The notes under the pieces were generated by a model. It did no database searches. It was given only the letters and a program-made list of their open reading frames with translations, and had not been told where the DNA came from. A program made the translations under genes and the position numbers. 64,000 nucleotides of DNA from Sipunculus nudus (Eukaryota > Annelida > Sipuncula > Golfingiida > Sipunculidae). The stretch spans positions 73,772,659 through 73,836,658 of the forward strand of contig CM049313.1 in NCBI GenBank assembly GCA_026874595.1, read 5' to 3'. Below are positions 14,857-56,181 of this stretch, piece by piece (within the stretch, counting starts at the first letter, position 1; each line of letters starts with the position of its first letter).

Positions 14857-14860
14857 TTTT

Positions 14861-16170
14861 AGCTCAGCTGACTTTCAGTCATGCTGGGCTATAGTGATGG
14901 GTCTTTGTCCGGCGTCCTTCTATCTGTCCGTCCGTCCGGCCGTCCGGCCGTTAGCAGGGCACAAATCGTAACCATAGGGGCTAGGGCCATGAACCCTATG
15001 CAGCCTTAGAGGTTCTAAAAAGATCTCCTTGCAAACCTGAAAATAGGTCACGGCGACCTATATTCTCAAAGTTATGGGGTGTGTTTGCACCCCCCAGAAA
15101 TAATTCTTTTAGCCAAAATTTTCATCCCAAACCTTCCATCTTTCACATACAGCTCACCTACCAACAGGGGAAGAACCATAATTATTTTGAGGTCACAAGG
15201 TCAAAGGTCAAGGTCACAGAACCAACTTCTTTGAAGTTGGCTTTATTTGATTACAAGACTCTTAGTGATGCTTTCTGCATTTCTTTTCTTTTAGGTTTTG
15301 CAGTTTACCTACCCTGCTGACCCCATTGAATAGCAAGCTGATAATTAAAACAAATTGGACTTGCACTTTTTGCATTTGCATGTTCATAAATCTGATATGA
15401 GAACTCTCCAACCTGATCATGCCTTTTGAATTGTTTTGGACATTCATAACTGTTACATTTTTTGAAGCAATTGCTACAAGTTTAGTGTCTTATTGGAGGG
15501 TGTGTGACTTGTCAGAAAACCATTATGTCTGCCAGGTAGCCATTTTAGAAATCCTTTTGCCAGGACAGTTTCTGTGATTTTATTATGATGTTTGGTCCCT
15601 TTTAGAGGATGTTTGTTGTTCAATTTCCAACCTGTCAGAAATCCAATATGGCCACCAGGACGTCATCTTTAAATTCCTTTAGAACATATTATCTCAAGAA
15701 CTATTAAAGTGAATGCAGTGGGATGTATATTAATGTAATCTTGCATTGGGTCAAAGATTTCTTAATAAATATGACCATCATTTATGAAAGCTCAGTACAG
15801 TTGGCTTGTATTGAATAAAAATTAATATGGAAGCACCCATTTCACAATAATTCTTGCATGGATTTCCTTGATCTTTTGCTATATTATGATCTTATATGTG
15901 GCCTGTGTGGTATTCCTTTCGAGACTGACAGGTATCGAGCAAGCTGTGGGATTAGTTCCTGATAGCTTAACAACCATACATTTTGCCTCAGACCATCATT
16001 CACTATGTTTTAACCAGACATATATGATAAGAATTTATGGCAATGTAGAAAATTTAAACAAAATTGGCATATAGGTTCTGCAACAATTTTACTAGAAGTT
16101 GTGAATTGCAGCCTATGATGTCGCAGTTCATGCTTGGCAGCTGAGCGTCATGACCCATGGGTCACTTGTT
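14861..16170 (+). mobile_element. AGCTCAGCTGAC element (Helentron/DINE-like), copy 1
   Basis: The 5' end follows a T-run and folds: TAGCTCAGCTGACT pairs with AGTCATGCTGGGCTA around a 3-nt loop. A TCCG-rich stretch follows (14926-14950). A core module carries AGGTCACGGCGACCT (15045-15059) and a run of AGGTCA half-sites (15190-15217). A distinct 3' module spans 15253-16135. The 3' end has CAGCTGAGC, the inverted partner of 5' GCTCAGCTG, then the 14-bp palindrome TGACCCATGGGTCA, then CTTGTT. Asymmetric inverted ends, a terminal hairpin and insertion in T-runs without clear target duplication are the described features of Helentron-associated non-autonomous elements. No Rep/helicase gene is present. 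This copy has one core module only. Confidence 0.75.
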
Positions 16171-16243
16171 GTGTTTCACTGGCAATTTTTATTTCAGCTG
16201 CTGCAAGATAAGCAACTAATATAATAATAAATATAAAGTGTCA

Positions 16244-16244
<1 letters not shown>

Positions 16245-16327
<83 letters not shown>
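16245..16327. repeat. Microsatellite (TA)n
   Basis: About 41 TA dinucleotides. The minus-strand frame reading poly-Tyr/Ile is a by-product. Confidence 0.97.
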
Positions 16328-16330
<3 letters not shown>

Positions 16331-16599
16331 CAAATAAATGGTCTTAAAAAGACCTTAAAATATACATAACTATGCACAGATGAACATATGATGACATAAT
16401 ACAATGCATATAAAAATGTGCTTCAAAATACAAAACTTTGTAGGTGTTCATGGATTGATAAATATACATGTACAATTAATGGATCTAAATGCATATTTTG
16501 TTACGCATTCTGACATTCCCAAACCACAATCATATAGTATTCATGCAGGAATTGTCATCAACCCAAGAATAAAGCCATATGGAAATTTCAAACCCTGAG

Positions 16600-16885
16600 T
16601 GTGTCAACTTGTCTATGTGTTTGCTTTTGGTGAAAATCACTCGTATCTTGATCAGGAGTGGTTCAATGTAATGGTCTGAAATTTGGCATGTCTATTCATC
16701 TTGGATAATTTTCTCATAGACCAGACAGGTGACACCACCTACCTTCCTGTTTTTTTTTTAAGAATACACTGATACCTTTTTCTCAGGAGTGGTTTGCCAT
16801 ATAAGCCTTCAATTTTGAATGTCCATAGATCTTTGATAACTCCCATCTTGTGTACAAGCCTGGTAGCACCACCTTTAATAATTTT
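16600..16885 (+). repeat. Core modules of family B, host of copy 2
   Basis: Two decayed modules of roughly 140 bp share CTCAGGAGTGGTT, GGCATGTC or GAATGTCCATAGATC, and end in GGTGACACCACCTACC or GGTAGCACCACC. The same modules resume at 20480, after element copy 2, so copy 2 is inserted into this tandem array. Confidence 0.7.
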
Positions 16886-17074
16886 TAGCTCAGCTGACTT
16901 TCAGTCATGCTGGGCTACAGCGATGGATCTTTGTCCGTCGTCCTTCTGTCTGTCCGTCAGTCCGGCCGTCCATCCGTCCGTTAGCAGGGCACAAATCCTA
17001 ACCGTAGGGGGTAGGGCCATGAACCCTATGCAGTCTTAGAGGTTATAAAAAGATCTCCTTGCAAACCTGAAATT

Positions 17075-17089
17075 AGGTCACTGCGACCT
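17075..17089. promoter_or_regulatory. ERE-like IR3 site, one mismatch
   Basis: AGGTCACTGCGACCT in duplicated unit 1. The equivalent site in unit 2 is perfect. Confidence 0.4.
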
Positions 17090-17499
17090 ATATTCTCGAA
17101 GTTATGGGGTGTGTTTGCACCCCCCAGAAATAACTCTGAGAGACAAAATTTTCATCCCAAACCTTCCATCTTTCACATACAGCTCACCTACCAACAGGGG
17201 AAGAACCATAATTTTTTTTAGGTCAAAAGGGCAAAGGTCAAGGTCACAGGAGCCTCTTCTTTGAAAAGCCTGTGGATGCATTTTAAGCCAACCCTTTCAT
17301 CCCAATTCTTTGATTTTTCACATATAGCTCACTTACTAAGTTGGAGAAGAATCCTATAGATGTTGAGGTCACAAGGATAAAGGTCAGGGTCACAGGATCC
17401 ACTTCTTTGAAAAGGTTGTGGACACTTTTCAAGCTAGACTTTTCATTCCAAACCTTCCAGCACTGATATCGCTTCTCTGCCAACAGGGGAAAAGACCTG

Positions 17500-18810
17500 T
17501 TGATTTTGAGGTCAAAGGTCAAGTTCACAGCACCCACTTCTTGCGTGGAGTCATTTTCAGGCAAACTTTTCAATCTGTACCTTCCATCTCTCATATATGG
17601 CTTACCTACCAATAAGGGAAGAAGCCTATTGATGTTGAGGTCAAAAAGTCAAAGGTCAAGGTCACAATATTTAATTGTTCTAAATGCTTGTGAGCATATT
17701 TCAAGTGTAACTGTTCAACCCAAACCTTCAGTCTTTCACACATGCCACATCTATGCATCACTCAGTTTGACTCAAACTTCATATTTATGGGTCTTTTTGC
17801 TTGAATAAATAACTTATTGATTTTGGGGTCAGCTGGTCAGCAGGTTAAAGGTTGCAGGTCAAAGTTATTCACCCATTGGTTGCCAAATAATTACACCAGA
17901 TTTAAGTGGTTAGTAGTTACCCATCATTTAGAAAGAATCCAGTTGATATATGGGCAAAAGACCAAGGTCATAGGTCAGGGATGTTCACAATTACTTATTT
18001 TATAGACCATCTCTATTTTTTAGCTCAGCTTACTTTCAGTCATGCTGGGCTATAGCGATGGGTCTTTGTCCGGCGTCCTTCCGTCTGTCCAGCTGGCCGT
18101 CCGTCCGGCCATCCGGCCGGCCGTCCGTCCGTTAGCAGGGCACAAATCGTAACAGTAGGGGCTTGGGCCATGTACCCTATGCAGTCTTAGAGGTTATAAA
18201 AAGATCTCCTTGCAAACCTGAAATTAGGTCACTGTGACCTATATTCTCGAAGTTATGGGGTGTGTTTGCACCCCCCAGAAATAACTCTTTGAGACAAAAT
18301 TTTCATCCCAAACCTTCCATCTTTCACATACAGCTCACCTGCCAACAGGGGAAGAACCATAATTTTTTTTAGGTCAAAAGGTCAAAGGTCAAGGTCACAG
18401 GAGCCTCTTCTTTGAAAAGCCTGTGGATGCATTTTAAGCCAACCCTTTCATCCCAATTCTTTGATCTTTCACATATAGCTCACCTACTAAGTTGGAGAAG
18501 AATCCTATAGATTTTGAGGTCACAAGGTCAAAGGTCAGGGTCACAGGATCCACTTCTTTGAAAAGGTAGTGGACACATTTCAAGCTAGACTTTTCATTCC
18601 AAACCTTCCAGCACTGATATCGCTTCTCTGCCAACAGGGGAAAAGACCTGTTGATTTTGAGGTCAAAGGTCAAGTTCACAGCACCCACTTCTTGCGTGGA
18701 GCCATTTTCAGGCAAACTTTTCAATCTGTACCTTCCATTTGTCATATATAGCTTACCTACCAGTACGGGAAGAAGCCTATTGATGTTGAGGTCAAAAAGT
18801 CAAAGGTCAA
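17500..18810. promoter_or_regulatory. DR1-type AGGTCA half-site clusters
   Basis: Words of the form AGGTCAAAGGTCA (direct repeat spaced by one base, the RXR/HNF4/COUP type) recur near 17506, 17639, 18376, 18514, 18658 and 18791. Many are followed immediately by another AGGTCA. They are part of each core module, so their number reflects module copy number. Regulatory use is only a possibility. Confidence 0.4.
18226..18240. promoter_or_regulatory. Perfect consensus ERE-like site
   Basis: AGGTCACTGTGACCT is the reverse complement of the classical vertebrate vitellogenin-type estrogen response element AGGTCACAGTGACCT. It lies in duplicated unit 2 of element copy 2, close to the 5' end. Mollusc genomes encode an estrogen-receptor homologue that binds such sites without hormone; binding here is untested. 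Confidence 0.55.
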
Positions 18811-20479
18811 GGTCACAATATTTAATTGTTCTAAATGCTTGTGAGCATATTTCAAGTGTAACTGTTCAACCCAAACCTTCAGTCTTTCACATATGCCACA
18901 TCTATGCATCACTCAGTTTGACTCAAACTTCATATTTATGGGTCTTTTTGCTTGAATAAATAATTTATTGATTTTGGGGTCAGCTGGTCAGCAGGTTAAA
19001 GGTTGCAGGTCAAAGTTATTCACCCATTGGTTGCCAAGTAATTACACCAGATTTAAGTGGTCAGTAGTTACCCATCATTTAGAAAGAATCCAGTTGATAT
19101 ATGGGCAAAAGACCAAGGTCATAGGTCAGGGATGTTCACAATTACTTATTTTATAGACCATCTCTATTTTTCTTGTATATATAACCATCCCACTCCAGCT
19201 GGTACATCTCCCTGTGTGGCTGTAATTGTGAGTGACACTGGTGACATATGACTCCCTTTTGTATCAGCCTATTAAGTGATAAGGCTCAGTGATAAGTACC
19301 TTGTTACTTCATAACAAAAACACTGTTGTCAGAATGCTTCAGCCAGGCATTAAGACTATGAGAGTATAGTATTAAGGTTTAGCTACTGATTTATAAGATG
19401 ATGGGAACATTTTGCAGTTTATTTTATGGAATCCTAGCAATAAACTTAGTTTCCTAGATATCTGAATATTTTAATATATATCACCACATATAAAAGCAAG
19501 TGTTTGTTCTCATAATATGTGGATGTGTACCTTGATTTAGGATGGCTTTTTGTTTTATTTCAAGACTCTTAGTCATACTTTCTGCATTTCTTTTCTTTCA
19601 GGTTTGGCAGTTTACCTACCCTGCTGACCCCATTGAAAAGCAGAGTGATAATAAAAAATATTGGACTTACACTTTTTACAATTGCATATCTATAAATCTG
19701 ATATGAGGGCCTGGACATGCCTTTTGAATTATTTTGGGCATTCATTACTGGATAATTTGCCCAAGTTTGGTCTCTTATTGGAGAATGTGGGATATCAAAT
19801 GTCATACTTGTCAGAAATCCATAATGTCTGCCAGTTAGCCACCTTAGAAATTCTTTCTTCAGTGCAGTTTCAGTAATTTTTCTTTAATGTTTGGTCCGAT
19901 TTAGAGAATGTTTGTTGTCTGAAGTCAGACTTGTCAGAAGTCCAATATGGCCACCAGGCAACCATCTTTTAATTCCTTTTGATCATATTATCTCAAGAAC
20001 AGTTAAAGTGAATGCAGTTGGATGTATATTTATGTAATCTTGTAAAGGATTGGGTCAAATATTTCTGAATAAATATTACCATCATTTATAAAAGTGCAGT
20101 ACAGTTGGCTTGTATTGAATAAAAATTCATACAGAAGCACCTGTTTCTCAATAATTCTTGCATGTATTTCCTTGATTTTTGCTATATATTTTGATCTTAT
20201 ATTTTCCCTTTGTGGTGTTCCTTTGAGACTGACAGGTTTCAAGCAAGCTGTTCGAATAGTTCCTGATAGCTTAACAATCATGCATTTTCCTCAGACCATC
20301 AATTCACTGTGTTTTAACCAGACATAGGTGATATATATTTCTGTTGTCATAGAAAATTTTCAACAAATTGGCAAATTGGTTCTTCAAAATTTGACTGGAA
20401 GTTGTGAATCTCAGTCCATGATGTCACAGGTCATGCTTGGCAGCTGAGCGTCATGACCCATGGGTCACTTGTTTTTTGT

Positions 20480-20633: not shown

Positions 20634-20637
20634 TTAA

Positions 20638-22373: not shown

Positions 22374-22377
22374 TTAA

Positions 22378-25232: not shown

Positions 25233-28200
25233 TTTTAGCTCAGCTGACTATAAGTCATCTGAGCTATAGTCATGGTCCATTGTCCGTCATCCGTCTGTCT
25301 GTCCGTCTGGATGTCCGTCCGTAAGACTGGCACGTTTCCAAACCGTTGGACCTATGAATCTGAATTTCCGCATACAGTTAGATGTCCCCATAATCTCCTA
25401 CCATGCCAAAAATTGGGTCAATAGGACTTCGTTCCTTTGAGATATTAAGGAAAAACCTCAATTTTTTATTAGAAATCTATTTTCACACTTCAGGACTGCC
25501 TAATTTCAAAACCACTCATCTGGTTTTCTTCATATTTACCATAAATATTCCTCTATATAGTTCCTATGTACATGCCAGATATTAAGTCAATATTATATAA
25601 TTTAAAAAAGTTATGGGCCCAAACATAATGGACTTTGTAAAAAAATCAGGAAGATATTTGGTCACTTAAGACCAAAAGTGTTAAAGGTAGGGACTTTTTA
25701 CCAGTAATACAACTTTAATTAATCAAAATTTAATTGTATATCAAAAATTAGATCAAAATCTGTTAAATTTTTTTTTAAAATGGCAAAAATATAAAATTGG
25801 TACCTTAAATTTTGCCCAACTTTGGCCATGGCACGTTTTTTTCCTGTAAGTACTGTGGATTTAATTTTCACACCATGTATACATAAGGATTTAATCTGTT
25901 AAAATCTGAAATTTGAAAATAAAAGCTGCAAAATTAGGCTAGTTATTGAATTTTTTTGGAGGCTCTTGTTGTATTCCCTTACATTGTCAAGCAGTCCACT
26001 TTGATGACTGTAGGTCATTCAGTGCACATCTCTATGCTCCCCAGGCTGTTGACATAATTTTAGATGTCCCCAAAATCTCCTACCATACCGAAAATTGGGT
26101 CATTAGGACTTTGTTCCTTCGAGATATTAAGGAAAAAAAACTCCGTTTTCCATAAAAAAAAGCCATTGTTACACTTCAAGGCTGCCTAATATCAAAACCA
26201 TTGATCTGTTTTTGATTGTATTTAGTATTCACATTCTTTTATACATTTTCTATGAACATACCAAAAATTAGGTCAGTATTGGGTATTATTTTGAAGTTAT
26301 GGGCCAAAACATAATGCAATTTTAAAAAAAATCAGGAAATATATTTACTCGCCTAACATGAGAATTGCTGAACCTAGAGACTTTTTTTCAGGAATATAAC
26401 TTTATTTAATCAAAATTCAATTGTTTACCCAAAATTAGATCTGAATTTTGCAAATTTTTCAAGTTATTAGCATAAATAAAAAATCAATACCTTAAATTTT
26501 GTCCAACTTTGGCACTGTTGATTTAATTTTCCCAGCATATATGCATAAGGATTTAATCTTTTAAAATCTGAACTTTCAAAAGAAATTGATTGGAATGAAT
26601 AGCTTTTATTCATGTTTTCATACACCATGTCAAGTATTGTTTACATCTAGCCCACCTAGTAGTACAGCCTTCACTTGCATTATGTAACCCACCCCAGGCA
26701 GCTTACCTTGGCCCAGCTTGGCCACTTCTAGCAGGCTTCCCCTCTGCCCTGCACTCATCCCCCCAGCTGGTGCATAAACTAGATGAATGTTATAATTTTT
26801 CTGTATTTTATTTTATTCTTGGACATGCTGCATTTTAGATTTTGTTTTGAACCACCAGGGTTACAATGATTAAAGTGTACATTTAATTGTGTCCACAAAG
26901 TGGTGTATTGCTGTGAAAGTGTGGATGTTCATGAGATAAGTAATTCCTTACTTCAGAAGAGTAAAAACTTCACCAGGTGTGAAATTGACTATTAATTCCA
27001 GTAATTAATTCAATCTGGGATAGTAATTAGCACAATGATATTGTTTGTCCCTCATTCAACCAACAGTGTGTATACTTTATTTGAAAAGATGTTTTATTTT
27101 ATCAAATTTACTTTTATTTTATTTTGGTGAATAAAATTAAGCATGTCCTGAAAACTCCAATGTGCAAAACTTTTTAATAGTGATTCAAGGAATATTCTTG
27201 TAGATGCCATGTTGTGGCATTATTTTCTTTTAAAATCAGTTTAAACATTTATGATTTAAAAATAATAAAATATATGTGTATGCATAATATGACCCAATGT
27301 TTTTTACTCTGTATAACTTTTGCAACAATTCTAATATTTTAACTTATATTTTCAGGTTTTTTAATTAAAAATTTATAAACCTGTAAATAAAAAAATGATT
27401 CAGATAAAAACTTCTTAATGGAAAAAGTGGATCTGCTTAAAAAAATAGGATTATATATAAACTTAAATGCATTATTCTCTTGAAAGTGAAATAAAGGTAT
27501 TAGTCCATTCTGTCCACTTGCCTGTCCATCTGTAAATTTTCGTATGCAACACAGTATCTCAAAACTTTTACTGTTTTTCTTCATGACAGTCTTGTCAGAG
27601 TATTAGTTTGCAATCATATATTTAGAACTTTACTATAACCAAGTAGGAGGGCCCCTTTCCTCTTAGCTTTTCATATTCTTATATAAAGGAAAAACATTAC
27701 AATAGAATATTTCTACATCCACCTTCGTGCTGCCCTCACTTTTCCCTTCTCCGAACCCCATCCCAAAGTTAGCCTCAGTAAGCAAGAACAAGATGAATCA
27801 GATATATTCATACTTTAATATTTTGTATAACTATTCGTCCATAGGTACCTATGTACATTCCAGAAATAATGTCAATATTGTGTAATATGTAGACATAGTG
27901 GGCATCACAATAATGTACCTTGTCAAGACTAAAGAGATATTGTGTCATACAGTCACATATTCATAAATCACTTCATCAGCATAGTTAATCATAACATCAT
28001 ATCTGTCAAATTGAACGCTTGCAGACTACCATACACTTTAGATCCTTCAACAAATAGCCTTATCATCATTCTACTACTGCTTATTACTGCTGTCATTGCA
28101 TTCATATTTGCTCAAATATATCACAATTTTCAACCCCTCCTAAATAAATAAAAAATAAACCACTTTATTTGACTCTATTAATCCATCAGTCAGGTAATTT

Positions 28201-28363
28201 CATTTATCATTTACTCACATATTACATTACATTCCTTTATAATAGCCCAACATGCACATGATATTCATAAGCTTTATCGACTCGATATAGTATCACAGTG
28301 GAGAAACATTTATAGTCCAATCACGATCAGCTGAGCGCCATGACCAATGGGTCCCTTGTTTGT
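25233..28363 (+). mobile_element. AGCTCAGCTGAC element, copy 3 (long)
   Basis: The 5' hairpin is of the second subfamily: TAGCTCAGCTGACT-ATA-AGTCATCTGAGCTA (25236-25266), nearly fully paired, followed by a TCCG/TCTG stretch. A module at about 25380-25940 is duplicated at about 26062-26590 (AATCTCCTACCAT, AAAATTGGGTCA, GAGATATTAAGGAAAAA, CTGCCTAAT). The 3' end at 28328-28361 reads CAGCTGAGCGCCATGACCAA, then TGGGTCCCTTGTT, with a decayed terminal palindrome. The middle (26640-27900) is AT-rich and may include other insertions. No protein is encoded. Confidence 0.65.
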
Positions 28364-29789: not shown

Positions 29790-30132
29790 CTGGGGAAGTT
29801 TGATGTATTGGCTTGATATTATGACCTGTTTATGCGTCTTTGATGGTATTATCATTTACAAGACAGGTGATGCTACCTACATTGACTTTTGCAGTGTATG
29901 CGCCTGCTTATCTCTAAAGAGGAATTTGAAACATCAGCCTAAAATTGGGCATGTTTATACATATCGGGTAGCTTTATAGTGTACAAGACTGGTGGCGCAA
30001 CCTACAATAATTTTTGCACGGTGTATGTCCCTGCTTATTTCGAAGGAGGGGTTTGACATGTCACTCTGACATTGGTTATATGTATATATCTCTTAGTTGT
30101 ATACAAGACTGGTGGTGCCAGCTACAATCATT
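29790..30132 (+). repeat. Family B core modules
   Basis: Modules with TTTGATGTATTGGCTTGATA, GTTTATACATATCGGGTAGC, and ACTGGTGGCGCAACCTACA or ACTGGTGGTGCCAGCTACA. The last module is cut by the hAT-like element at 30141. Confidence 0.65.
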
Positions 30133-30140
30133 GTATCTGG

Positions 30141-30700
30141 CAGGGTTGGGGCCAGGTACATGCAAAAGTACCTAGGTACAGGTACTTACAAAATGGTCAG
30201 GTACAGGTACAGGTACAGGTACAGCATTATTGTAGAGTACCTAGGTACAGGTACAGGTACTTAAGAAAGTACCTAGGTACAGGTACAGGTACATTTTAAA
30301 GATATTTGAACTAATGATAATTGCATAAATTTCTTGTAGATATGCGATAATAAGTTGTAATAGAATGGCTGAATATATCATTAAAAAGTTTTAAATTATA
30401 GCTTTTTATGTCATCATGAAAAAAAAAACGGAGCCAGCTGCAAATGTAAAGGATCGCCTTTAGTAAATGTAATAAGTTAATGAAGCTGATAAAGTTTACA
30501 AAGTTAGTATTACAGAAATATAAAACTTTCATTCATATACTAAAATACGATGTCACTTTTTCAAATCAAGTTTTGAGTTTTAGAGTAATGATTTAAGTTA
30601 AAAAAGTCTTGAAGCACAACACACTCTTTAATATAAAGAGCTGAATTATGTACCTAGGTACAGGTACAGGTACAGGTACAAGTACCTGGCCCCAACCCTG
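30141..30700. mobile_element. hAT-like MITE with AGGTAC subterminal repeats
   Basis: The ends are a perfect inverted pair: CAGGGTTGGGGCCAGGTAC at 30141 and GTACCTGGCCCCAACCCTG ending at 30700. Flanking 8-mers GTATCTGG (30133-30140) and GTATCCAC (30701-30708) match at five positions, consistent with an aged 8-bp target duplication. Arrays of AGGTAC hexamers lie just inside both ends (about 30153-30296 and 30650-30693), with CCTAGG junctions. CAGGG ends, 8-bp duplication and subterminal repeats are typical of hAT elements, whose transposase binds subterminal repeats. The AT-rich middle codes for nothing, so it would need a transposase from elsewhere. Confidence 0.8.
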
Positions 30701-30717
30701 GTATCCACCTATTGTAT

Positions 30718-31895
30718 GGATCCGCCAAAACAGAGTTTTGCGGATACTATGTTTTCATTCGGACGCCGCAACCGCCACTGCTGCATAGGTTTCCGGATAA
30801 CTCCTCCGTAACCACTGGGCAGAATTTTTTGAATTTCAGAATTATGATCGGGTCACAGAACTGCTGCGCCCTCATTTTTGGTTTACCTCTGACCTTTCAT
30901 CTCTGCCCAGCGTCCATTTGTGCGTCTGTTTCCACACATTAACCCACATATCTCGGGAACCATTTGATCGATAAGGCTACAAATTTTGCACAAATGTACC
31001 CCTTGGATAGCTTTATAACATACACTAAAGATGATGGCGCCACCTGCAACCATTTTTGCACAGCGTCCATCTGTTCATCTGCCTTGGGATAAAATCACTC
31101 ATATCTCTGCATTGGTTGGACTTATCCACCTGAAATTTTGCATGTGTATACATCCTGGACAGTTTTCTTGATTTTATGACAGGTGGTGCCACCTACATTC
31201 ATGTTTAAGCTGCAGGCATCCAAGCTCATATCTTGGGAACGTTTGACCAAAATTTTGCATGTGAATAGATCTCCCATAGCTCTTGATCATACGCAAAACT
31301 GGTGGCGCCACCTGCAACCATTTTTGCTCAGTGTTGATTTGTTCATCTGGCGTGGGATAAAACAACTCGTATCTCAGCAGTGATTTGACTTATCCACCTG
31401 AAATTTTGCAGGTTTATACATACTTGACAGCTTCCTTGATTTTGTGACAGGTGGCTCCACCTACATTTTTACATTTATGCTGCAGACATCCAAGCTCATA
31501 TCTCGGGAACCATTTGACTGACTTGGCAAAAATTTTGCATGTTGATAGATCTCACATAGCTCTTTATCATACACAAAACTGGTGGCTCCACCAGCCACCA
31601 TTTTGCACAGCGTCCGTCTGTTTGTGTGCCGTGGGCTAAAATCACTCATATCTCAGTAGTGGTTTGACTTATCTGCATAAAATTTTGCATGTTTATACAT
31701 CTTGGATAGCTTTCTCGATTTTGTGGCAGGTGGCGCCACCTGCATTTATATATGCGCTGCAGACATTCAGGCTTACATCTCAGGATTTGTTTGACATATC
31801 ACCCTGAAATTTCGCATGTGTAAACAACTTGGACAGCTTTCTGGATTTTGTGGTAGGTGGCGCAACCTACATACACATTTCGGCTGCAGACATCC
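30718..31895 (+). mobile_element. Hairpin-type element family E, copy 1
   Basis: It begins with ATCCGCCAAAAC-AGA-GTTTTGCGGAT (30720-30745), a hairpin with one bulge, then ACTATGTTTTCA. Modules of about 270 bp recur (GGTGGCGCCACC near 31036 and 31303, GGTGGCTCCACC near 31581), each with TTTTTGCACAGCGTCC, ATCACTCATATCTC, GAAATTTTGCATG and CATCTTGGATAGCTTTC. The 18-bp palindrome GCAGGTGGCGCCACCTGC is at 31726-31743. Minus-strand frames at 31174-31649 are shadows. The 3' end was not defined. Confidence 0.7.
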
Positions 31896-31899
31896 AGGC

Positions 31900-33200
31900 C
31901 ATTATGCAACACACCTCACTCTATTTCCCCTTGCCACTCAATCCATGCCTCACTTCACCCGTCCCACACTGATTTTGGTGGATACACGTAGTCACTTGTT
32001 GACTACCAGTATTCTAGTTTTTGTGTTGTGTGCACCAATGCCAGAATTTCAGCAGTGATGTTTGTTTAATTGTTTCTTGTTCTAAGTCTTTAGTACTAGC
32101 TTTGTTCATGTACATGTAACATGTTCTTGAAAAGTAATCATCCAGCATTAAAGCATTATACCTGGTGTAATCTCATTGCACAGGTTCGCATTAGGCCTGT
32201 AGGCCTTGTTAATTGTTGAACTACTTTGAACCACAACATTTTAGATCCAAAATGGCCGACTTCTGGGTAGACTAGTAACCTGTATATGATCATGTCTAAA
32301 GCTAGCATTCCATTTATGCATATGCGGTATGTATGCTTCTGCAGTACTTATGCGTAATGCAGCTAAAATACAAACCCCTCTGGTCCCAATAATATGTATA
32401 AGTATGCAGTATGAATGCAAAATATAGCCTTAAGTATAGAGCTGCAGGAGAAGAGAGGTCATCTGCCTGTGGAATATCCTATCACCGACGTCCAAGTGTG
32501 GAACTTTCCTGTACTTTACCATGCATAGGGTGTTCAATCTCTACCCTGAGGGATCCTAACATGGGGCATACACATATGTATACATACACATGTGCATGTG
32601 TATATATGGAGTTACTCTGAGAGAACATAATTGGTGTGTTTTCTAGCTGCATATGCATATGTGGCAATTACGTGTGCAAACGTATATATATGGAATACCA
32701 CCTTTACTTATCAGAGGTAGTGTAGTAGTTTTCCAAACATACACACGATGGCACTAATTATGACAAATGGTTTGACAGCATGCAAGGCGCACTGGTTATG
32801 GTGTCCCCAGAATTTGGATGTAATGTACCTTGTGCCAGAATGTTACCATCTAATTCTAAACTTTGCTGATCTAAAATGATGATCTGGCAGGAAGGGTAGC
32901 CTTTAATTAAACTTGGGGATATGTACATGTGCTAAACAGTCACTCAGCCTGTGGTGGGTGAATCATCATTTTTTGAGGTAGGAATCAATAATAAAATCAT
33001 ATTCAGTCACTGAAAGATAGACAATGACTAATGATCAATGATCAATTATAAATTGAATATTTTTATAACCATATATATTACCATGAAATGTCCTGTATAG
33101 AATCATAAGAAAATATGGACAGAGTTAATTCAATGTAACTTCTACATTACGCTGAAAGTTCAAGGTAATGCCCAGGTTGTTAACACTTATTCATCACATA
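31900..33200. other. Unassigned DNA with alternating purine-pyrimidine tract
   Basis: No gene recognised. About 32566-32610 and 32648-32690 are rich in alternating CA/TG/TA steps (ACACATATGTATACATACAC and CATGTGCATGTGTATATATG), a possible Z-DNA-prone tract. Confidence 0.45.
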
Positions 33201-33223
33201 AGGTTAAGAGCAGACAAACCTCC

Positions 33224-34133: not shown

Positions 34134-34636
34134 AATGTTTTCCATATTTAACACACAGTTCTCTGACAGTTTTAGCTTGTATACCTAAATCTGCAGTCTC
34201 CCATCTCCTTTACTGCCAATTTATAAAAGAATGCTCATACTGTAAGCTTATAACCTGAAATTTTGATTGGCTTTTTGATCGCAAGGGATTAAATTTTGTG
34301 ATATATGCGAAAGTGTTTCCAAATTTAAAAGTTGTTCCATTTACACTGATGAAAAGTCCTTTAAACTATAGTGTCACTAACATGTATGTTTTGTATTTGT
34401 GTAGCTTCAAATGGCAAAAAAATGCATTGTTTATTCCCTTAGCTATTAGTCATTCCATGTCAGATTTTAAGATTTTTTGCACATACTTATTGTCTTTATA
34501 ATGATGGATATGCTCTTTTAACTGTATGATAAGTTAGTGAAAATGGAACCCTAATGAAACACTATAAGTAGTATAAAACTGAAAAATGTGAAAATATATT
34601 GCAATGCATATGTTGCCAACCACAGAATATTCATAA
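34134..34636. other. Unique spacer between the two 25-bp blocks
   Basis: Non-repetitive AT-rich DNA. It could be an insertion into one original array. Confidence 0.5.
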
Positions 34637-36935: not shown

Positions 36936-36949
36936 CAGGGCTTTGCAGA

Positions 36950-39170
36950 GGTATTTGCTCCCTTAATGCTTACATTAGTGATGTACTTTGCCCATTGATA
37001 TCATGACAGCTTAATTGTTGCTGCAGACCATGTTTTCCACAACCCTCCCCTCTCTGCATCTTCTGGCTGTTTGGAATTACGCTCTCAGTATTTCTATAGA
37101 TGTAATAACCTTTCCAAAGCTAGGTTTTTCTATCTTGGGTGATGGATTGTATTTCAAATCAAGCACATAAAGCTGCATTGTCATTTTTTTCCTTGGAACA
37201 TGAATGGCAGGGAAGATAAAAGGCAGTACATGACAATTTAGGAGATTACTGGGTAGGGAGACAGATCTGTAAGAGAGACATTCTCATACAGATATAACAC
37301 AAAATATATCATGCACATTATCAACCGCCTTCCTTGCAGAAGTATGTATATCCAACTGTGTTATAGGATATGCAGGAAATATATTCATTGAAGACATGCT
37401 GTGATGTGAGAGGTAAAGAACATGAATTTTAGTAATGCCATTCTTCTGAATAACATCATCATTCAGTTATATAAGAAATAAAGTGTACTTCAGTAGTAAA
37501 GAAACATTTTTAGCCATAATTCTTTTGACTACCAATTAAACCTTGTACATGCAAGACACAGTTCTTAAGGCAGGGAAAATTTGAATAAAATTGAAGAACT
37601 TTGAGGATGATCATACATGTAATACAGAATGCATTTGATAAAATTGATATTCTGTAAATATGCTGGATCAGCCCTCAAAGTACTAAATTGTATTCTCTTG
37701 CCCCATGCATAGTACATGCAGTGCATAGCATAATTACAAGAACACACAATATATAAGATATAATATGTCATTTTTTTTTATTAATATTTTTCTTCAATTA
37801 CAAATGATTCATAAGTCATGGATATGAATAAATTTGTAGGTTTAAATTATTTGAAGCTTTTAAAGCTTTTAATTTCAATTCACTGGATTAGACCATTCAC
37901 AAAAATTAATTGTTCAATCTGTACAGACTCATTGAACAAAAATGTGATGCAACAGGGCAAGTTTTTACCATTTTATTTGTTATTTTTCTGGCTGAGATAT
38001 TGTTTGGAATTTTACCAGCTGGCACATAAATAAAAAAGAAAAGTTCTACTCTTCTTGAAATGGTGTAAATGGTGAACATAAAATTCAGTCAATTTTCCAT
38101 ACATAGCGTTCAAAATTATTTATGGGAAACATTACCAAGGAACTGGTCTTCAATTGCAAACAAAAACTTGATCAGCAAAATTTGGAGCAGGAGAACCATA
38201 AAAAATGTGTGGCCTTTTTTACCAAGTGTTTCAGAACTAAAATGCTACAAATGCAAGATTCAGACAAGATGATACACTGGTAGAGAGAAAATATGCTAAG
38301 CTTGGCCTGATCATGGATAAACTCTCTAGTTAGGGTGGCAGGAGGCAGTCAAGCGGGTAGTCATAGGATTAACTTTCTCTGAGTCAACATTTATTATATT
38401 GATTGGAACAAGGGCTGTTGCAACATTAAAGTACAGCAAGTACGACCTGTGAATTGAAAGCAAAGGTTCTATTCTCACATCCATGATTAGGCCATCAGCT
38501 GTTTACTGATAGTCAGACAAGCTTAAAGTCTGATGGTTTATTAATTAGTCAGTCTATAATTGGGGACTTCATACTTGGAATATAGTAAAGCCAAGCCCAT
38601 TTTAGTTGCTTGGTTGTATGGTGCTCAAGTTATTAACTAATAACATGAGAAAATAAACTTATTTTATATTTTGTTTATGTACCTTTCATACAGAATGCAT
38701 ATAACCTTTAATTTTTTAAGGCATGATATTTAATAGCATTTTGTATCACAGGGTTACCTTCATCAAGATTCAACAAGCAGGGGTACCAACAGGCCATTGA
38801 TGAAACCTTAAAGTAAAAAATAAAAAAAGGATTTTTCTCACTGGGTCAGTCATGAAGTCATTGACTGTGTGCATTCAGTCAGGCCTGGAAAACTGCATCC
38901 AGAATGAGGCAGGAAGAAAGTGCAATTAGCACCACCTATCCTCATCTATTTGAACCATGGATGTGTTAACATTTTAACATAATTCCAGCCTTGTAGAGAT
39001 TCAGATAATGCTGCTCCTTAGAACTCACATAATACATGGTCTAACTGAGAGATATGTGAACAAATGATTCAAAAACATGCAGTGCCCTTCAGTTCTTTAT
39101 CAAGTCACTCTCTCTGTTTTTAAAATAAACAACTGCTAGATATTTGGTGATAGTTTTTCCACGTATCAGC
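36950..39170. other. AT-rich DNA, nothing recognised
   Basis: No coding exon, RNA gene or clear dispersed repeat seen in this 2.2 kb. Confidence 0.5.
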
Positions 39171-39882: not shown

Positions 39883-40995
39883 TTTTAGCTCAGCTGACTA
39901 TAAGTCATCTGAGCTATAGTCGTGGTCCATTGTCCGTCATCCGTCCATCCGTCCGTAGATGTGGCACGTTTTGAAACCGTAAGACCAAGGAATCCAAAAT
40001 TCAGTATAATGTTTTATGTCCCCAAGATCTCCTGCCAAGTCGAAAACTGGGTCTTTGCGACTTCGTTCCTTTGAGAAATTAAGGAAAAACCTCACTTTTT
40101 TATTAAAATCCTATTTTCACACTTCAGGACTGCCTAATATCAAAACCACTCGTCAGTTTTTCGTCATATTTACCATAAATATTCCTCTATATAGTTCCTA
40201 TATACATGCCAGAAATTAAGTCTGTTAAGTATAAATTCTGTATGGATAAATATAGACACAATTAAAAATTGTGAAATCTAAATCAAGTATTATTTTTAGA
40301 TATTTATTGTTTTGCAGATTTAAAAGATATATTTTTGTGGTAAAAAATAAATAAACATTTGTATGCATGATGTGGTGTTATCTGACAAGATTGAGATTTA
40401 TGATGATGCAATTGAGAATTATGAATCAACTTTTGTATTCAGATATATATGTTATATTGGAAATGTATAGAAATATAAACTTAAATTTTAAAAAAATTGA
40501 TGTGAAAAAAAATGAGGATTTAATACAAACATTTGTTCATTATTTTCCTGCCTCAGTAGGAAATTGGGATCAGGCTTTGTTTGCCCTGTTTTATGTTGTT
40601 AATTAGTTATATTTCAACTGTAGAAATTTCATAAAAAGATACATATATATTTAATAATTAATATTATACAAAAAAATAGATTCAATTGAACAAATGTATA
40701 AACTACTGAAATGTCAACAGTTAATCAAAAAGCCAACTAATTATCATGGTAATAGTACAGATCATTTGTTCACAAACTGCTCACATGCTTTAGTTTCAAC
40801 ATTAGGAAACACATGGTAAGTCAAGAAAATATTATTTGCAACAATTTCTTGCTCATCAATACAAACCAATCATATAAACCAACCATGGCCTTTATTACCT
40901 CTTCCTCTTACACTTTATCTCCATTTGATATTATTTTAGATTTTTACCTCCAAGGTCAACTTCAGCTGAGCACAGTGACCCATGGGTCCCTTGTT
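39883..40995 (+). mobile_element. AGCTCAGCTGAC element, copy 4
   Basis: The 5' hairpin TAGCTCAGCTGACT-ATA-AGTCATCTGAGCTA starts at 39886 after a T-run, followed by TCCG repeats (39932-39955). Copy 3 modules follow (ATCTCCTGCC, GAAAACTGGGTC, TTAAGGAAAAACCTCA). The 3' end at 40963-40995 reads CAGCTGAGCACAGTGACCCA, then TGGGTCCCTTGTTTG, with the inner palindrome GACCCATGGGTC. At about 1.1 kb this is the shortest copy with both ends. The 40230-40940 part is AT-rich and unrelated to the copy 1 interior. Confidence 0.75.
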
Positions 40996-44683: not shown

Positions 44684-45310
44684 TATTAGCTCAGCTGACA
44701 GGAAGTCATCTGAGCTATAGTCTTGGTCCATTGTCCGTTGTCCCTCCCGCCGTCTGTCTGTTCCTCTGTTAGACTGGCACATTTTGAAACTGTTAGACCT
44801 ATGAATCTAAAATTCGGCATACTATTAGATTTCCCCAAAATCTCCTACCATACCAAAAATTAGGTCCATATGACTTCCTTTCCTTGGGATATTTAGGAAA
44901 AACCTCAAATTTCCATTAAAAACCTATTACACTTAAGGACTGCCTAATCTCAAAACCACTGATCTGTTTTTCTTAATATTTACCAGAAGTAATCTCCTAT
45001 ATATTTCCTATGTACATGCCAGAAATTAAGTCTGTTAAATATAATTTCTTGAAGTTATTGGCCCAAACATAATAGACTTTGCAAAAAATCAGGAAAAATA
45101 TTTACTCACTTAACATGAAAAATTTTGAAACTAGAGACTATTTTCCAAAGTATATAATTTTGTTTAATTAAGATTCAATTGTTTACCCAAAATAAGATAT
45201 GAATTTTGTAATTTTTTAAGTTATAAGCATAAAAATAAAATCAGTACCTTAAATTTTGCCCAACTTTGACCATGGCACATTTTTTTCCTGGAAATCTAGA
45301 ATCATTTTTG
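44684..45310 (+). mobile_element. AGCTCAGCTGAC element, copy 5, 3'-truncated
   Basis: The hairpin AGCTCAGCTGACAGGAAGTC, then ATCTGAGCTATAG, starts at 44688. Modules match copies 3 and 4 (AATCTCCTACCAT, TTAGGAAAAACCTCAAAT, GGACTGCCTAAT). No CAGCTGAGC/hairpin 3' end was found before the GAAT microsatellite. Confidence 0.65.
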
Positions 45311-45429
45311 AGATTTTTGACCCCTTATGTTTTTTTGATGGCCCATACAGGGCAGGGACATATATATATGTTTTTGCACTGCTAAAAATAATGCCATTTC
45401 AGTTCCCTGTAATTTTGTTTTAAGGGGAT

Positions 45430-47487: not shown

Positions 47488-49275
47488 ATGTGCCAAATTT
47501 TTTTTATTTCCTTCCTCAGCTGACAGAATTCTTTGTGCCGCAGTTATTTCACTTTCTCAGCTGACAGAATTCTGTGTGCCACAGTTTTTTCTCTTCCACA
47601 GCTGACATAATTCTGTGTGCCACAGTTATTTCACTTCCTTAGCTGACAGAATTCTGTTTGTCACAGTTATTTCACTTCCTCGGCTGACAGAATTCTATTT
47701 GCCACAGTTATTTCACTTCCTCAGCTGACAAAATCTGTGTGCCACAGTTATTTCCCTTCCTCAGCTCACAGAATTCGGTGTGCCACAGTTTCTCACTTCC
47801 TCAGCTGACAAAATTCTGTGTGCCACAGTTATTTCCCTTCCTCAACTGACAGAATTATGTGTGCCACAGTTAATTCACTTCCTCAGCTGACAGAATTCTG
47901 TGTGCCGCAGTTATTTCCTTTCCTCAGCTGACAGTATTTTATGTGCCACAGTGAGATCCCTTCCTCAGCTGACAGCATATTGTGCAACTGACAGCAGTTT
48001 TCCTGCCTTAGCCGATGGAGTTTTTTGTGTCCCTTCCTCAGCTGACAGAATTCTGTGTGCCACAATGAGTTCCCCACCTCTGCTGACAGAATTCTGTGTG
48101 TCACATTGAGTTTCTTTACTCAGCTGACAGAATTGTATGTGCCACAGTTATTTCCCTTCCTCAGCTGACAGAATTCTGTGTGCCACAATAAGTTCCCCAC
48201 CTTTGCTGACAGAATTCTGTGTGTCACATTGCGTTCCTTTACTCAGCTGACAGAATTCTGTGTGCCACAGTTATTTCCCTTCCTCAGCTGACAGAATTCT
48301 GTGTGCCACAGTGATTTCCTATCCTCTGCTGACAGAATTCTGCATTCCACAGTTATTACCCTTTCTTATGCTGACAGAATTCTGTGTGCCACAATACGTT
48401 CCCCACCTCTGCTGACAGAATTCTGTGTGTCACATTGAGTTCATTTACTCAGCTGACAGAATTCTGTGTGCCACAGTTATTTCCCTTCCTCAGCTGACAG
48501 AATTCTGTGTGCCAAAGTTATTTTTTATTCTCCGCTGACAGAATTCTGCATTCCACAGTTATTTCCCTTTCCTATGCTGACAGAATTCTGTGTGCCACAA
48601 TACATTCCCCACCTCTGCTGACAGAATTCTGTGTGTCACATTGAGTTCCTTTACCCAACTGGTAGAATTCTGTGTGCCACAGTTATTTCCCTTCCTCAGC
48701 TGACAGAATTCTGTGTGCCACAGTTATTTTTTATTCTCCGCTGACAGAATTCTGCATTCCACAGTTATTTCCATTTCTTATGCTGACAGAATTCTGTGTG
48801 CCACAATTCGTTCCCCACCTCTGCTGACAGAATTCTGTGTGTCACATTGAGTTCCTTTACCCAACTGGTAGAATTCTGTGTGCCACAGTTATTTCCCTTC
48901 CTCAGCTGACAGAATTCTGTGTGCCACAGTTATTTCCTATCCTCCGCTGACAGAATTCTACATTCCACAGTTATTTCCCTTTCCTATGCTGACAGAATTC
49001 TGTGTGCCACAATAAGTTCCCCACCTCTGCTGACAGAATTCTGTGTGTCACATTGAGTTCCTTTACCCAACTGATAGAATTCTGTGTGCCACAGTTATTT
49101 CCTATCCTCTGCTGACAGAATTCTGCATTCCACAGTTATTTCCCTTTCTTATGCTGACAGAATTCTGTGTGCCACAATACGTTCCCCACCTCTGCTGACA
49201 GAATTCTGTGTGTCACATTGAGTTCATTTACTCAGCTGACAGAATTCTGTGTGCCACAGTTATTTCCCTTTCTCG
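47488..49275. repeat. 41-bp minisatellite with 206-bp higher-order repeat
   Basis: The unit is CTGACAGAATTCTGTGTGCC, then ACAGTTATTTCCCTTCCTCAG. About 43 copies, most carrying an EcoRI site (GAATTC). From about 48240 the units fall into an ordered five-unit block. Diagnostic variants are TGCATTCCACAG, TTATGCTGAC, CACAATACGTTCC, GTGTGTCACATTGAGTTC and CCAACTGGTAG. The GCATTCCAC-type unit recurs at about 48342, 48548, 48754 and 48960 (206 bp apart), then at about 49124 (164 bp, one unit lost). The left part lacks this order. No coding role. Confidence 0.95.
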
Positions 49276-49470
49276 GCTCCTCTGCCTTTTGTTTATATTT
49301 TCTTCCCTTAGCTGAGTCTCCTGAGCCTCTGAGTTAGATATATTACCCTTCCTCAACTAACTGAATCTCTTGGGCCACAACTATTTAACTGCCTTAAATG
49401 ACTAAGTCTTCTGGGCCTCAGCTATTTCCCTTCCTGAAATGACTGAATCTTCTGAAATCATTTCCCTTCA
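49276..49470. repeat. Decayed right edge of the 41-bp array
   Basis: Words such as CTTCCTCAACTAACTGAATC and GGGCCACAACTATTTA show old, diverged units. Confidence 0.7.

Positions 49471-52309: not shown

Positions 52310-52361
<52 letters not shown>
52310..52361. repeat. Microsatellite (AT)n
   Basis: About 25 AT dinucleotides. The poly-Tyr/Ile frames on both strands come from it. Confidence 0.97.
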
Positions 52362-52366
<5 letters not shown>

Positions 52367-52890: not shown

Positions 52891-53015
52891 TCGCTTTACC
52901 AGGTGGGCGTCAGCTTCCATGTCTGTTTCCGCAGCCTCGTCCCTGTCCTTGCCTGGACCTTTTAAATGCTTATATATCCTAAATGCTGGCAGCTATAAAT
53001 ATGATATCTCAATTG

Positions 53016-53822
53016 TATCTACCAAAACAATGTTTTGCGGATACTATGTTTTTGACCGGGTTTCGCCGCGGCGGCAGCATTTGTTTCCGGAATAGAACTC
53101 TCAGACCACTGGACAGATTTTTCCAAAACTTTACACGATTATCGGGTCACATGTCATCTGCTGCCGAAATATTTTGCATTGACCTCTGGCCTTTCCACTG
53201 TCCAGTGCGTCCATCTGTGCATCTCTTTTGAAACATTAACCCACATTTTTCAGGAACAGTTTGAAAGATTGGGCCAAAATTTTGCATGTTTATAGATCTC
53301 ACATTGCTCTTTATCATACGCAAAACTGGTGGTGCCACCTGCAACCATTTTTGCACAGCGTCAGTCTGTTTGTCTGCCTTGGGATAAAATCACTCATATC
53401 TCAGTATGACTTATCTGCATAAAAGTTTGCATATTTATACATCTTGGATAGCTTTCTTTATTTTATGACAGATGGACACTGTGCAAACATGGTTGCAGGT
53501 GGCACCACCATTTTTTGTGTATGTTATAAAGCTATCCAAGGGCTACATTTGTACAAAATTGTTTTCCTGATTGGTCAAATGGTTCCTGAGATATGTGGGT
53601 TTATGTGTGGAAACAGATGCACAAATTGACGCTGGGCAGGGAAGGAAAGGACAGAGGTCAACGCCAATGGTTAGGCACCAGTTCACATGTGATCCGAAAA
53701 TTGGTGTAAGTTTCTGAAAATCAGTCCAGAAGTCTCAGAGGAGTTCTTGGTAACGAAAGCAGTGGCGGCAGTGGAACCCGGTTAAAAACATAGTATCTGC
53801 AAAACTTCGTTTTGGCGGATAT
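53016..53822. mobile_element. Foldback pair of family E elements
   Basis: The left end CCAAAACAATGTTTTGCGGA followed by TACTATGTTTTTGACCGGGTT is matched inverted at the right end (AACCCGGTTAAAAACATAGT, then ATCTGCAAAACTTCGTTTTG). Similarity runs inward for about 300 bp per arm (ACTCTCAGACCACTGGACAG, ATCGGGTCACATGT, CCCACAT, GGAACAGTTTGA). Both arms carry their own terminal hairpin, so two copies sit tail to tail with 5' ends outward. No coding capacity. Confidence 0.8.
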
Positions 53823-54177
53823 AATAATTATCTCCAGCTCTTACCACCAACAATATATATCAGGCCATCGTAGGTGAGTTGTGATAATTGATATATTGAC
53901 CTTAAATTTATTTGTTTATTCCATTTGTTATCTCCCATCCCTTCCATAAATTTCTTAGAAATCAGTTTTTTTGCTAATTCTACAAACATATAAACAAACA
54001 AGAAGAAAACATAGGTAAAAACATCCAACTTCCTTGGTGTAGGTAATTAAAATGAAAATTACAGAAAACAAGGTCAAACAACCTCAATGATAATGTCATT
54101 TTTTACTTGATCATAATAAAACATCAGATTTGAGTTTATTCAAGCAAATATTGAAGGGATCACCAAGATTGTTGCCT
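53823..54177. other. Unassigned DNA
   Basis: No supported feature. Confidence 0.4.
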
Positions 54178-54420
54178 TCGCCAGGAGGGTAGGTCTTCAT
54201 CAAAGTTCATATGTGTGTTTGGTATGGGGTTGTGTTTGTGTGTGTATTTGTGTACAACATAACTCGTGCAATTATGAATGGAATCTCATAAAATTTTCAG
54301 GGCCTTTCAGGATTGTGCCAAGGAAAAATTGTTTCAATTTTGGTGTGGATCCAGCACATGACCCAGATTCAGGAACCTCTTCAAGGAATATTCACATATG
54401 TAAAGTGAATTAAGCATAAA
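54178..54420 (+). repeat. Dispersed repeat shared with 41095-41320
   Basis: GCCAGGAGGGTAGG, GTGTTTGTGTGTGTA, ACATAACTCGTGCAATTATG, AATGGAATCT, GGATCCAGCACATGACCCAG and TCAAGGAATATTCACA parallel the earlier copy. Confidence 0.55.
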
Positions 54421-54589
54421 TGAATATGGCAATAAAGGCTGAATTAGTGAACGCCAAATGCCAACAAGAATGATGATGGGAATATGGGCTGAATATGTGA
54501 ATGCCCACATGGCGTAGGCTTGCATTCTTTGGAATTCAGATTTCTAGTTTTACTATGTTCAAGGTATCGTTGATGCAGACTTAACACAA

Positions 54590-55030
54590 AACATGTTTAA
54601 GCTAAGGACTTTTTTTCCCAGCAACATAACTTTAATTAATCAAAATTAAATTGTATACCCAAAATTAGATCAAAATCTTGTAAATTTTTTAAAATATAAG
54701 CAAAAATAAAGGATACAAATAAGGATTTAATCTGTTAAAATCTGAAATTTGAAAATAAAAGCTGCAAAATTAGGTTAGTTATTGAATTTTTTTGGAGTCT
54801 CTTGTTGTATTCCCTTAAATTGTCAAGCACTCCACTCTGGTCACTGTAGGTCATTCAGTGCAGCTCTCTCTGCTCCCCAGGCTGTTGTTATGTAATCCCA
54901 TCACTTGGGCAAGCCCTCTCTCCACTGAGTTTAGCTTGATCAGGCTGTCTGCGGTTAATAACACAGGGAGCCTTTTTCTCCCCCCCCCCATCCCATTCTG
55001 TTGACAGACCTGTACTATGAACTAGATGAA
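54590..55030 (+). repeat. Fragment shared with the interior of element copy 3
   Basis: AAAATTAGATCAAAATCT, AAAGCTGCAAAATTAGG, TTGTTGTATTCCCTTA, GTAGGTCATTCAGTGCA and GCTCCCCAGGCTGTTG recur at 25745-26050, and AACTAGATGAAT recurs near 26775. It is a partial copy without ends. Confidence 0.65.
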
Positions 55031-55199
55031 TATTATAAATAACATTTTTTTTCAGCAACAAGCAGTAACAACAGAGACCCCTCCTCTGACCCACCCCTTC
55101 AATACAGAAGACTAATAAACAAGTTTTGTCAGTTCCTGAAAAGTGGTGGCGCACCTGTATTTTTGTTATTTTAACTAATATATTTCTCTTTTGCCAATG
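55031..55199. other. Short unassigned spacer
   Basis: Contains GTGGTGGCGCACCTGTATTT near 55143, a module-end word of families B, D and E. Confidence 0.4.
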
Positions 55200-56181
55200 A
55201 CAACAAACATGTAAGTTTCATAGCTGTGATTACATCTACTGTCCCAAAACCTGGTGTGTTTGTTGATCACAAGTCCATCCAATCATCCACATAAATTTGT
55301 TTCCAGATGATAACTCCAGGTTGGATTGACACTTGGATTTCAAACTTGACTTTAATATGGCCCACTACTCAAGCAAGAATCTATATAATTTTTGGGTCAT
55401 GAGGTCAAAGGTCAAGGTCACAGGGGCCATCTGTTCACAAATTAGTTTCCAGATGATAACTCCAGTTTAGTTTGACATATTGGATACAAACTTTACTTAT
55501 ATATGGCTCACCACTAAAGTAAGAACCGTGTCAATTTTGGGGTCCGGCGGTCAAAGGCCAAGGTCTAAGGACCCATTTCTTTAAAAAGAATGTGTATGCA
55601 TTTCAAGCCAAACTTTTCTTCACAAACCTTCCATTTTCAGGATATTGCCAACCTGCCAATAGGGAATGATTCTATTCGATTTTGGGGTCATAGGGTCAAA
55701 GGTTAAGGTCACAGGGCCCATCCATTCACAAATTAGTTAATGGATGATAATTCTGCTTTGGATAGACAGATTGGCTTCAAACTTGATTTATTATTGACCT
55801 ACCACTTAAGTAAATTCATTTTGATTTTCTTGGTCAAGAGATCAAAGTTGAAGGTCACAGGAGCCACGACTTTAAAAAGACAGTGGATACACTGTAAATC
55901 AAACTTTTCATCCCAAACTTCCCATTTTTCACACATGGCTTACTTGCCAAAAGTGAGGAAATCTGTAGATTTTGAGGTTACCTGGCAGGGGTCAAGGTCA
56001 CTTTTTACAAGATTGTTACAATAATCTAAATGCTGCAAATTCAAGGTTAATAAGTTCTAAGATTTTTTTTGTCACAAGGTCATTGGTTAAGGTCATAGGA
56101 CTGTCATTCTGAAAAATCTCTTCAAAAATATCCTTTTTGATAAAATCAGCTGAGCATTGAAACCCATGGTTCCCTAATTAA
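55200..56181 (+). mobile_element. AGCTCAGCTGAC element, 5'-truncated copy 6
   Basis: Modules of roughly 150-185 bp carry CAGATGATAACTCCAG, ATATGGC, and clusters of GGTCAAAGGTCAAGGTCAC (near 55404, 55549 and 55692), like the core of copies 1-2. The 3' end at 56147-56180 has CAGCTGAGC, then AAACCCATGGTTCCC, a decayed terminal palindrome. The 5' hairpin is missing. Confidence 0.65.

Follow-up and report, generated by a model that had tools for sequence, protein, structure and literature searches.

What kind of element are the interspersed repeats in a 64,000-nucleotide stretch of the Sipunculus nudus genome (GCA_026874595.1, contig CM049313.1, positions 73,772,659 to 73,836,658; hereafter the window), what mobilized them, and what sets the strand that they enter? 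We conclude that the repeats are very probably a family of Helentron-associated, non-autonomous, rolling-circle elements (HINEs), derived from a Helentron that encodes an endonuclease and is copied by a rolling-circle mechanism. This classification follows from their shared ends, a 5' hairpin, insertion into T-runs (without duplication in the clean cases), a same-ended autonomous element, and endonuclease fossils in some copies. Neighboring copies tend to point alike along the chromosome, which suggests insertion into one particular strand.

Ends and copies of the family in the window

An initial annotation of the window, made from the letters of the sequence, described six 5' ends and five 3' ends. 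The six 5' sites stand as placed, with TTTTAGCTCAGCTGAC exact at 14857, 16883, 25233, and 39883 and with one mismatch at 18018 and 44684 (TATTAGC), giving four exact matches rather than five. The five 3' ends all carry CAGCTGAGC exactly (16138, 20441, 28328, 40963, and 56147), the second having been misplaced at 20451. Exact copies of the palindrome TGACCCATGGGTCA lie at 16151 and 20454; at 28341 and 40976 it differs at up to two positions, and at 56147 it is degraded. The described asymmetry of the inverted ends holds: GCTCAGCTG occupies nucleotides 2 to 10 of the 5' end, and its partner CAGCTGAGC lies 24 nt inside the 3' end, forming a subterminal inverted repeat (subTIR). The TCCG microsatellite was likewise found, as TCCG-type repeats that occur with 146-bp tandem units in the window copies.

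Folded as DNA, the 5' end formed the expected hairpin in all four window copies tried (-9.4 to -9.8 kcal/mol; z -3.3 to -5.1). The loop is 3 nt, as annotated, in three of these and 5 nt in the copy at 44688. Copies with the same ends are abundant, as the 5' 16-mer has 17,506 + 17,778 = 35,284 exact matches on the two strands of the 1.43-Gb genome, where a reversed-control 16-mer has 0 + 0.

Self-comparison of the window divides the copies into two groups, HINE-A (14861, 16887, and 18022) and HINE-B (25237, 39887, and 44688), all on the plus strand. The complete HINE-A copy at 14861..16170 has the 5' hairpin, TCCG-type repeats, subTIR, palindrome, and terminal CTTGTT, based on end matches, self-comparison, flanks, and folding. 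At 16887..18021 lies the left part of another, either 3' truncated or interrupted by the next copy; its 3' junction looks like an interior T-run, and only about 16 bp align past it. The next copy, at 18022..20473, is complete and either abuts or is nested in its predecessor (end matches with one 5' mismatch, self-comparison, and empty-site comparison). The two are a duplicated pair, as had been proposed, with 95.6% identity between 16883-18020 and 18018-19171.

HINE-B is represented by complete copies at 25237..28360 (end matches, self-comparison, and flanks) and at 39887..40995, the latter with an endonuclease fossil at about 40701-40873 (end matches and translated and sequence comparison). 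A HINE-B 5' part spans 44688..45400, with no 3' end assigned to the copy, and interior pieces with a degraded 3' end span 54579..56179 on the plus strand; both were placed by an end match and self-comparison. On the minus strand, repeat-library matches mark HINE-like pieces without the 5' AGCTCAGCTGAC end at 12254..13259 and a second stretch of weak library support (depth 2) at 53468..53834.

The window also contains long minisatellites. A large one, at 33101-36966, has a 25-bp unit (GCAGACAAACCTCCCTACAGGAGGA) that leaves frames as long as 385 codons open, and further ones lie at 57002-60115 (81-bp unit), 47504-49278 (41 bp), and 8692-9847 (53 bp).

Autonomous partner, fossils, and insertion sites

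HINE copies have no coding capacity of their own, and a Helentron with the same ends exists in the genome. The autonomous element at C1:71790321-71805195 (14,875 bp) carries both HINE-type ends. Its 5' end, AGCTCAGCTGACTGTAAGTCATCTGAGCT, lies 14.9 kb upstream of the 3' end in the same orientation, aligns at 69-85% with HINE 5' ends across 61 to 370 bp, and folds into the same hairpin. A sibling on C17, about 97% identical, has a 2342-amino-acid (aa) open frame with Pfam matches to Herpes_teg_N, DUF6570, Helitron_like_N, PIF1, and Exo_endo_phos, the last, an AP-type endonuclease, occupying the C-terminal part of the frame (E 9.8e-06). We take the Herpes_teg_N domain to be an OTU-like protease domain. 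The Rep and PIF1-like helicase motifs are present (HUH as GSPHIH, YxxxY, and Walker A). The copies on C17, C5, and C1 for the most part share 96-98% identity, and the similarity breaks off one or two bases from CTTGTT at most. The annotation's proposal of a Helentron-associated non-autonomous family is supported on each of the three checks that it suggested: many copies across the genome have these ends, the clean empty sites described below show insertion between Ts, and an autonomous Helentron bears both ends.

A genome search with profile PF14214 gave 143 matches among the 150 of 195 candidates scored, and none of the 14 control genomes matched. In 10 of the 20 regions fetched downstream of Rep genes we found CAGCTGAGC with the palindrome; the CAGCTGAGC 3' end was not found in the other 10. 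An intact CTTGTT end comes next downstream of the gene in seven regions (L053, L055, L056, L057, L061, L063, and L072). In L062, L069, and L070 a variant end lies next to the gene, and the intact ends there belong to further copies.

Helentron-type genes at C8:80.13 Mb and C11:50.38 Mb were considered as partners but rejected, as no such ends occur in the 15.4 and 14.8 kb examined. Eighteen of the first 20 Rep loci fall in the lineage of these two candidates (L031-L048, e.g., C8:80133600-80149000). This lineage has long open frames, up to 2426 aa among those listed, and one copy carries OTU, Rep, PIF1, and endonuclease domains. In the two copies examined, neither HINE-type ends nor the lineage's own ends were found.

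HINE 3' parts retain a decayed endonuclease reading. The copy at L014 aligns with the 3' part of a C7 element, including its endonuclease, over 525 columns at 85.7% and 127 columns at 85.0%, and the peptide read from one HINE fossil has a 63.5% match in L057 (E 2e-26). Together, these results tie an abundant HINE family to a same-ended autonomous Helentron and to endonuclease fossils, which the available passages of the oyster study (PMC7492417) indicate could not be done for its families.

To define the boundaries, we compared 39 5' ends (6 from the window, 32 from twenty C1 stretches, and 1 from the autonomous copy) and, allowing at most 5 substitutions, 36 3' ends from the same sources and nine Helentron loci. 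Five Ts, two of them required by the 5' search pattern, precede AGCTCAG in 31 of the 39 5' ends, and a T directly follows CTTGTT in 30 of the 36 3' ends. Joined flanks found an uninterrupted homologue in 14 flank pairings. Ten insertions were examined in detail, leaving out the pairings L015:3719, L024:517, L025:172, and L028:3616. Three have clean empty sites (L015:3946, L020:4196, and L027:138) in which AGCTCAG...CTTGTT is inserted between Ts without duplication; in one, the occupied CATTTTT[AGCTCAG...CTTGTT]TGTG corresponds to the unoccupied CATTTTTTGTG. The empty sites of L011 and L026 are compatible within one or two Ts, and the remaining five junctions are too diverged or T-rich for a decision. 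No duplicated non-T sequence was seen in any of these 10 comparisons with empty homologues. With a T-run as the target, it is ambiguous at which T the cut fell.

Several observations weigh against the HINE classification. The perfect subTIR is only 9 bp, whereas HINE and Cg_HINE families are reported with 11-15 bp. The 3' palindrome, part of the hairpin pair originally described, is too short to fold better than shuffles (z -0.1 and +0.5 in the two copies folded). The end-to-end C1 copy has broken frames, so ends and open frame are seen in separate copies, and the C17 reading stopped short of its 5' end.

The other classes that we weighed fare far worse. Derivation from canonical Helitrons (Helitron1) is scarcely credible: the genome does hold two Rep loci outside the Helentron lineage (L029 and L030), but the family's ends are not TC...CTRR, its insertions are not between A and T (the definition given in the passages of PMC4067079 available), and its partner encodes an endonuclease. 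Ends and partner thus refute this origin. The two loci themselves look like canonical Helitrons, share 40% identity with each other, and contain stop codons. Mobilization by a cut-and-paste transposase, as for a miniature inverted-repeat transposable element (MITE), has next to no probability. Pearl elements were first described as MITEs, according to PMC7492417, but the asymmetric inverted repeats and the Helentron partner speak against such an origin here, and the clean empty sites without duplication refute it.

Orientation of copies along the chromosome

Dense orientation mapping covered C1 from 0 to 20 Mb. At C1:96-1146 kb, 76 of the 77 listed exact HINE 5' ends lie on the minus strand. 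The list appears complete on both strands in this interval because the minus copies that it missed lie beyond it. An apparent strand switch at 1.15-1.23 Mb was withdrawn in view of minus copies absent from the first list, and only 96-1146 kb was used as a block; minus copies may be missing from the tail of each 100-place list. The first list was thinned before segmentation. In twenty C1 loci covering part of C1:93-355 kb, all 32 HINE 5' ends (at most one mismatch) are minus-strand. HINE-matching DNA there amounts to 59,912 versus 2,664 bp by strand, and in the window to 14,116 bp plus versus 1,004 minus, using a library partly built from these C1 loci. In the window, all six HINE 5' ends are on the plus strand, together with a second repeat, family X; the minus-strand pieces described above are the exceptions.

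Coherence, on which the annotation did not remark, extends past the first block and declines with distance. Among HINE-B pairs at C1 0.1-20.1 Mb, 63 of 69 that are 3-100 kb apart share a strand (40 of 46 beyond 1.2 Mb). Agreement is 40/66 at 100-200 kb, 166/272 at 0.2-0.8 Mb, and about one half above 0.8 Mb. The two subfamilies also agree with each other within 200 kb (HINE-A versus HINE-B, 19/21).

Family X, at 29858..32210 on the plus strand, consists of 127-bp repeats with GGTGGCGCCACC-type palindromes and has its 3' end at 32178-32210 (CAGGTTCGCATTAGGCCTGTAGGCCTTGTT). Its sequence is unlike that of the HINEs, but a palindrome and CTTGTT terminate all 5 copies found, and its 17-mer has 3842 exact genome copies. 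We regard it as a second Helentron-like family, filed by the sequence of its 3' end, with the 5' end not found. Before testing, its 100 places were thinned to 80 for circular shifts, and a hand-thinned list of 81 served for nearest-neighbor counts. HINE-B agrees with the nearest X in 28 of 30 cases within 30 kb and 43 of 47 within 60 kb (30 of 34 beyond 1.2 Mb), and X agrees with the nearest HINE-B within 60 kb in 41 of 48. Beyond 1.2 Mb, 67 of 91 X/HINE-B pairs within 100 kb agree, a value never reached in 5000 circular shifts of X. In the approximately 1.05-Mb C1 block, X matches are 14/14 on one strand.

Short interspersed nuclear elements (SINEs) derived from tRNA served as a control. They agree with the nearest HINE or X in 4 of 11 cases within 60 kb and 4 of 13 within 100 kb, and the former differs from HINE-B/X agreement beyond 1.2 Mb (4/11 versus 30/34; Fisher p 0.0016). 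This control is small, and places from later 2-mismatch and body-pattern searches, the former yielding only exact places, were kept out of the tests. Further control patterns were too rare (199 long terminal repeat [LTR] primer-site matches and 425 SINE body matches), and the first SINE pattern was too strict. One SINE, in L019 (C1:215 kb), has an A-rich tail and sits about 25 bp inside a HINE 5' end. Family Y (CCGCCCCCTAGCGGCC) was rejected as an orientation control, being clustered, often at 331-bp spacing; it is strand asymmetric genome-wide (199 forward versus 455 reverse).

From known Helitron and HUH biology, Rep would nick the 5' T^AGCTCAG end, the helicase would peel off one strand, the 3' subTIR and hairpin would signal the end, and the peeled strand would be joined into a T-run. 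The orientation data suggest that this target may be single-stranded DNA on one strand. Rolling-circle insertion of a single strand into an exposed T-run would leave orientation to be set by whichever strand is exposed. The bias is not a trivial one of target sequence, because runs of five or more Ts and As are symmetric on the HINE sense strand (218 versus 212); they number 405 and 455 in the whole C1 stretches and 224 and 207 in the window. Our leading, though tentative, candidate for the exposed strand is the template of lagging-strand synthesis at germline replication forks, in which case orientation would record local fork direction. We favor fork direction because single-strand insertion predicts orientation by the exposed strand and because IS200/IS605 elements follow forks in bacteria. 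IS200/IS605 elements use a different transposase. By extension, Helentron families unlike in sequence might read one local strand polarity set by germline forks, and the orientations of tens of thousands of HINE copies might form a fossil replication map whose blocks would span roughly 50 kb to 1 Mb, a proposal that we put forward with reserve.

A number of results count against coherence or its attribution to forks. X copies agree only weakly with each other beyond 1.2 Mb (20/33 within 100 kb). HINE-A alone gives 7 of 8 agreeing pairs within 100 kb with an adjacent-pair permutation p of 0.06, and only 4 of 6 HINE-A copies match the orientation of the closest HINE-B or X at up to 60 kb. Of the SINEs with a HINE or X within 30 kb, 4 of 6 agree with it, one of them inside a HINE; among themselves, SINEs share a strand in 15 of 18 cases at up to 100 kb (adjacent-pair p 0.012). 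This self-concordance, due in part to evenly spaced arrays, makes them a weaker control. By eye, two matches to the LTR primer-site pattern have the same orientation as the X copies close to them. Neighbor counts are not independent events, and, for the fork step, T-A skew has opposite signs in the two domains inspected, base skew giving nothing usable.

The main rival to fork direction is transcription, with elements entering the displaced strand of R-loops or with selection against one orientation in introns or PIWI-interacting RNA (piRNA) clusters. We consider it possible but somewhat doubtful. Unistrand piRNA clusters are the subject of one paper, judging by its title and abstract opening, and outside the first megabase coherence fades after about 50-100 kb, a possible length for long genes; the block of about 1.05 Mb (HINE 76/77 and X 14/14), however, exceeds ordinary genes, and selection in introns should affect SINEs too, which agree in 4/11.

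It is improbable that the coherence merely reflects local tandem or segmental duplications, or the nesting of HINEs within HINEs. Comparing flanks from C1:93-355 kb and the window, we found that the surroundings of 38 5' ends are HINE-like DNA in 21 (20 oriented with the host and 1 against), other repeats in 10, and without a match among the compared sequences in 7. Some 5' ends are spaced 227-374 bp apart, and among 32 flanks there are 10 alike pairs. The remaining flank pairs have no similarity, though, and all 12 C1:93-355 kb insertions with a non-HINE-like flank lie on one strand. Only L020:4196 runs counter to its host, and its orientation is that of the domain. On the sense strand T-runs and A-runs are equally numerous, and family X agrees at 3-60 kb, both of which also argue against duplication. 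If the strand rule holds genome-wide, it bears on target choice of Helitron-type elements in eukaryotes, and the polarity of germline replication or transcription could be read from sequence alone.

Comparison with known systems

The following comparisons draw on passages of each source. Like the Cg_HINE/Pearl elements of bivalves (PMC7492417), the S. nudus family has a 5' subTIR with a complementary inverted repeat, a left microsatellite (there of GTCY type), a tandem-repeat core, a 3' subTIR with a palindrome, and T-rich insertion without duplication. Its subTIR is 9 bp rather than 11-12, a comparison made by description and not by subTIR letters. A same-ended autonomous partner is present here, whereas no Repbase Helentron could be related to Cg_HINEs (PMC7492417).

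The DINE-1/HINE elements and Helentrons of mites, flies, and mosquitoes (PMC4067079) share the asymmetric subTIRs, the 3' palindrome, the T-run target, a partner with Rep, helicase, and endonuclease, and the relation of deletion derivative to that partner. Their subTIRs are 12-15 bp and lie 38-60 bp from the 3' end in mites, compared with 9 bp and 24 nt here, and the passages of PMC4067079 available do not mention the strand coherence that we observe. Fusarium Helitron2 (PMC5148889) resembles our family in its asymmetric terminal inverted repeats and a hairpin at both ends, and its reported insertion site lies between TTTT and T or C; it differs in that no endonuclease domain was found in the fungal elements.

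Among the titles and abstract openings of the literature matches listed, with subscription journals mostly outside, we found no report of strand coherence for Helitrons or Helentrons, and the Helraiser passages (PMC5876387) concern circle formation and replication, not the target strand. If orientation does follow germline forks, the S. nudus elements would parallel the IS200/IS605 family, single-strand transposons whose orientation follows the direction of replication (PMC5371812), with the difference that those elements are bacterial and that their excision and insertion have been tied to the fork by experiment.

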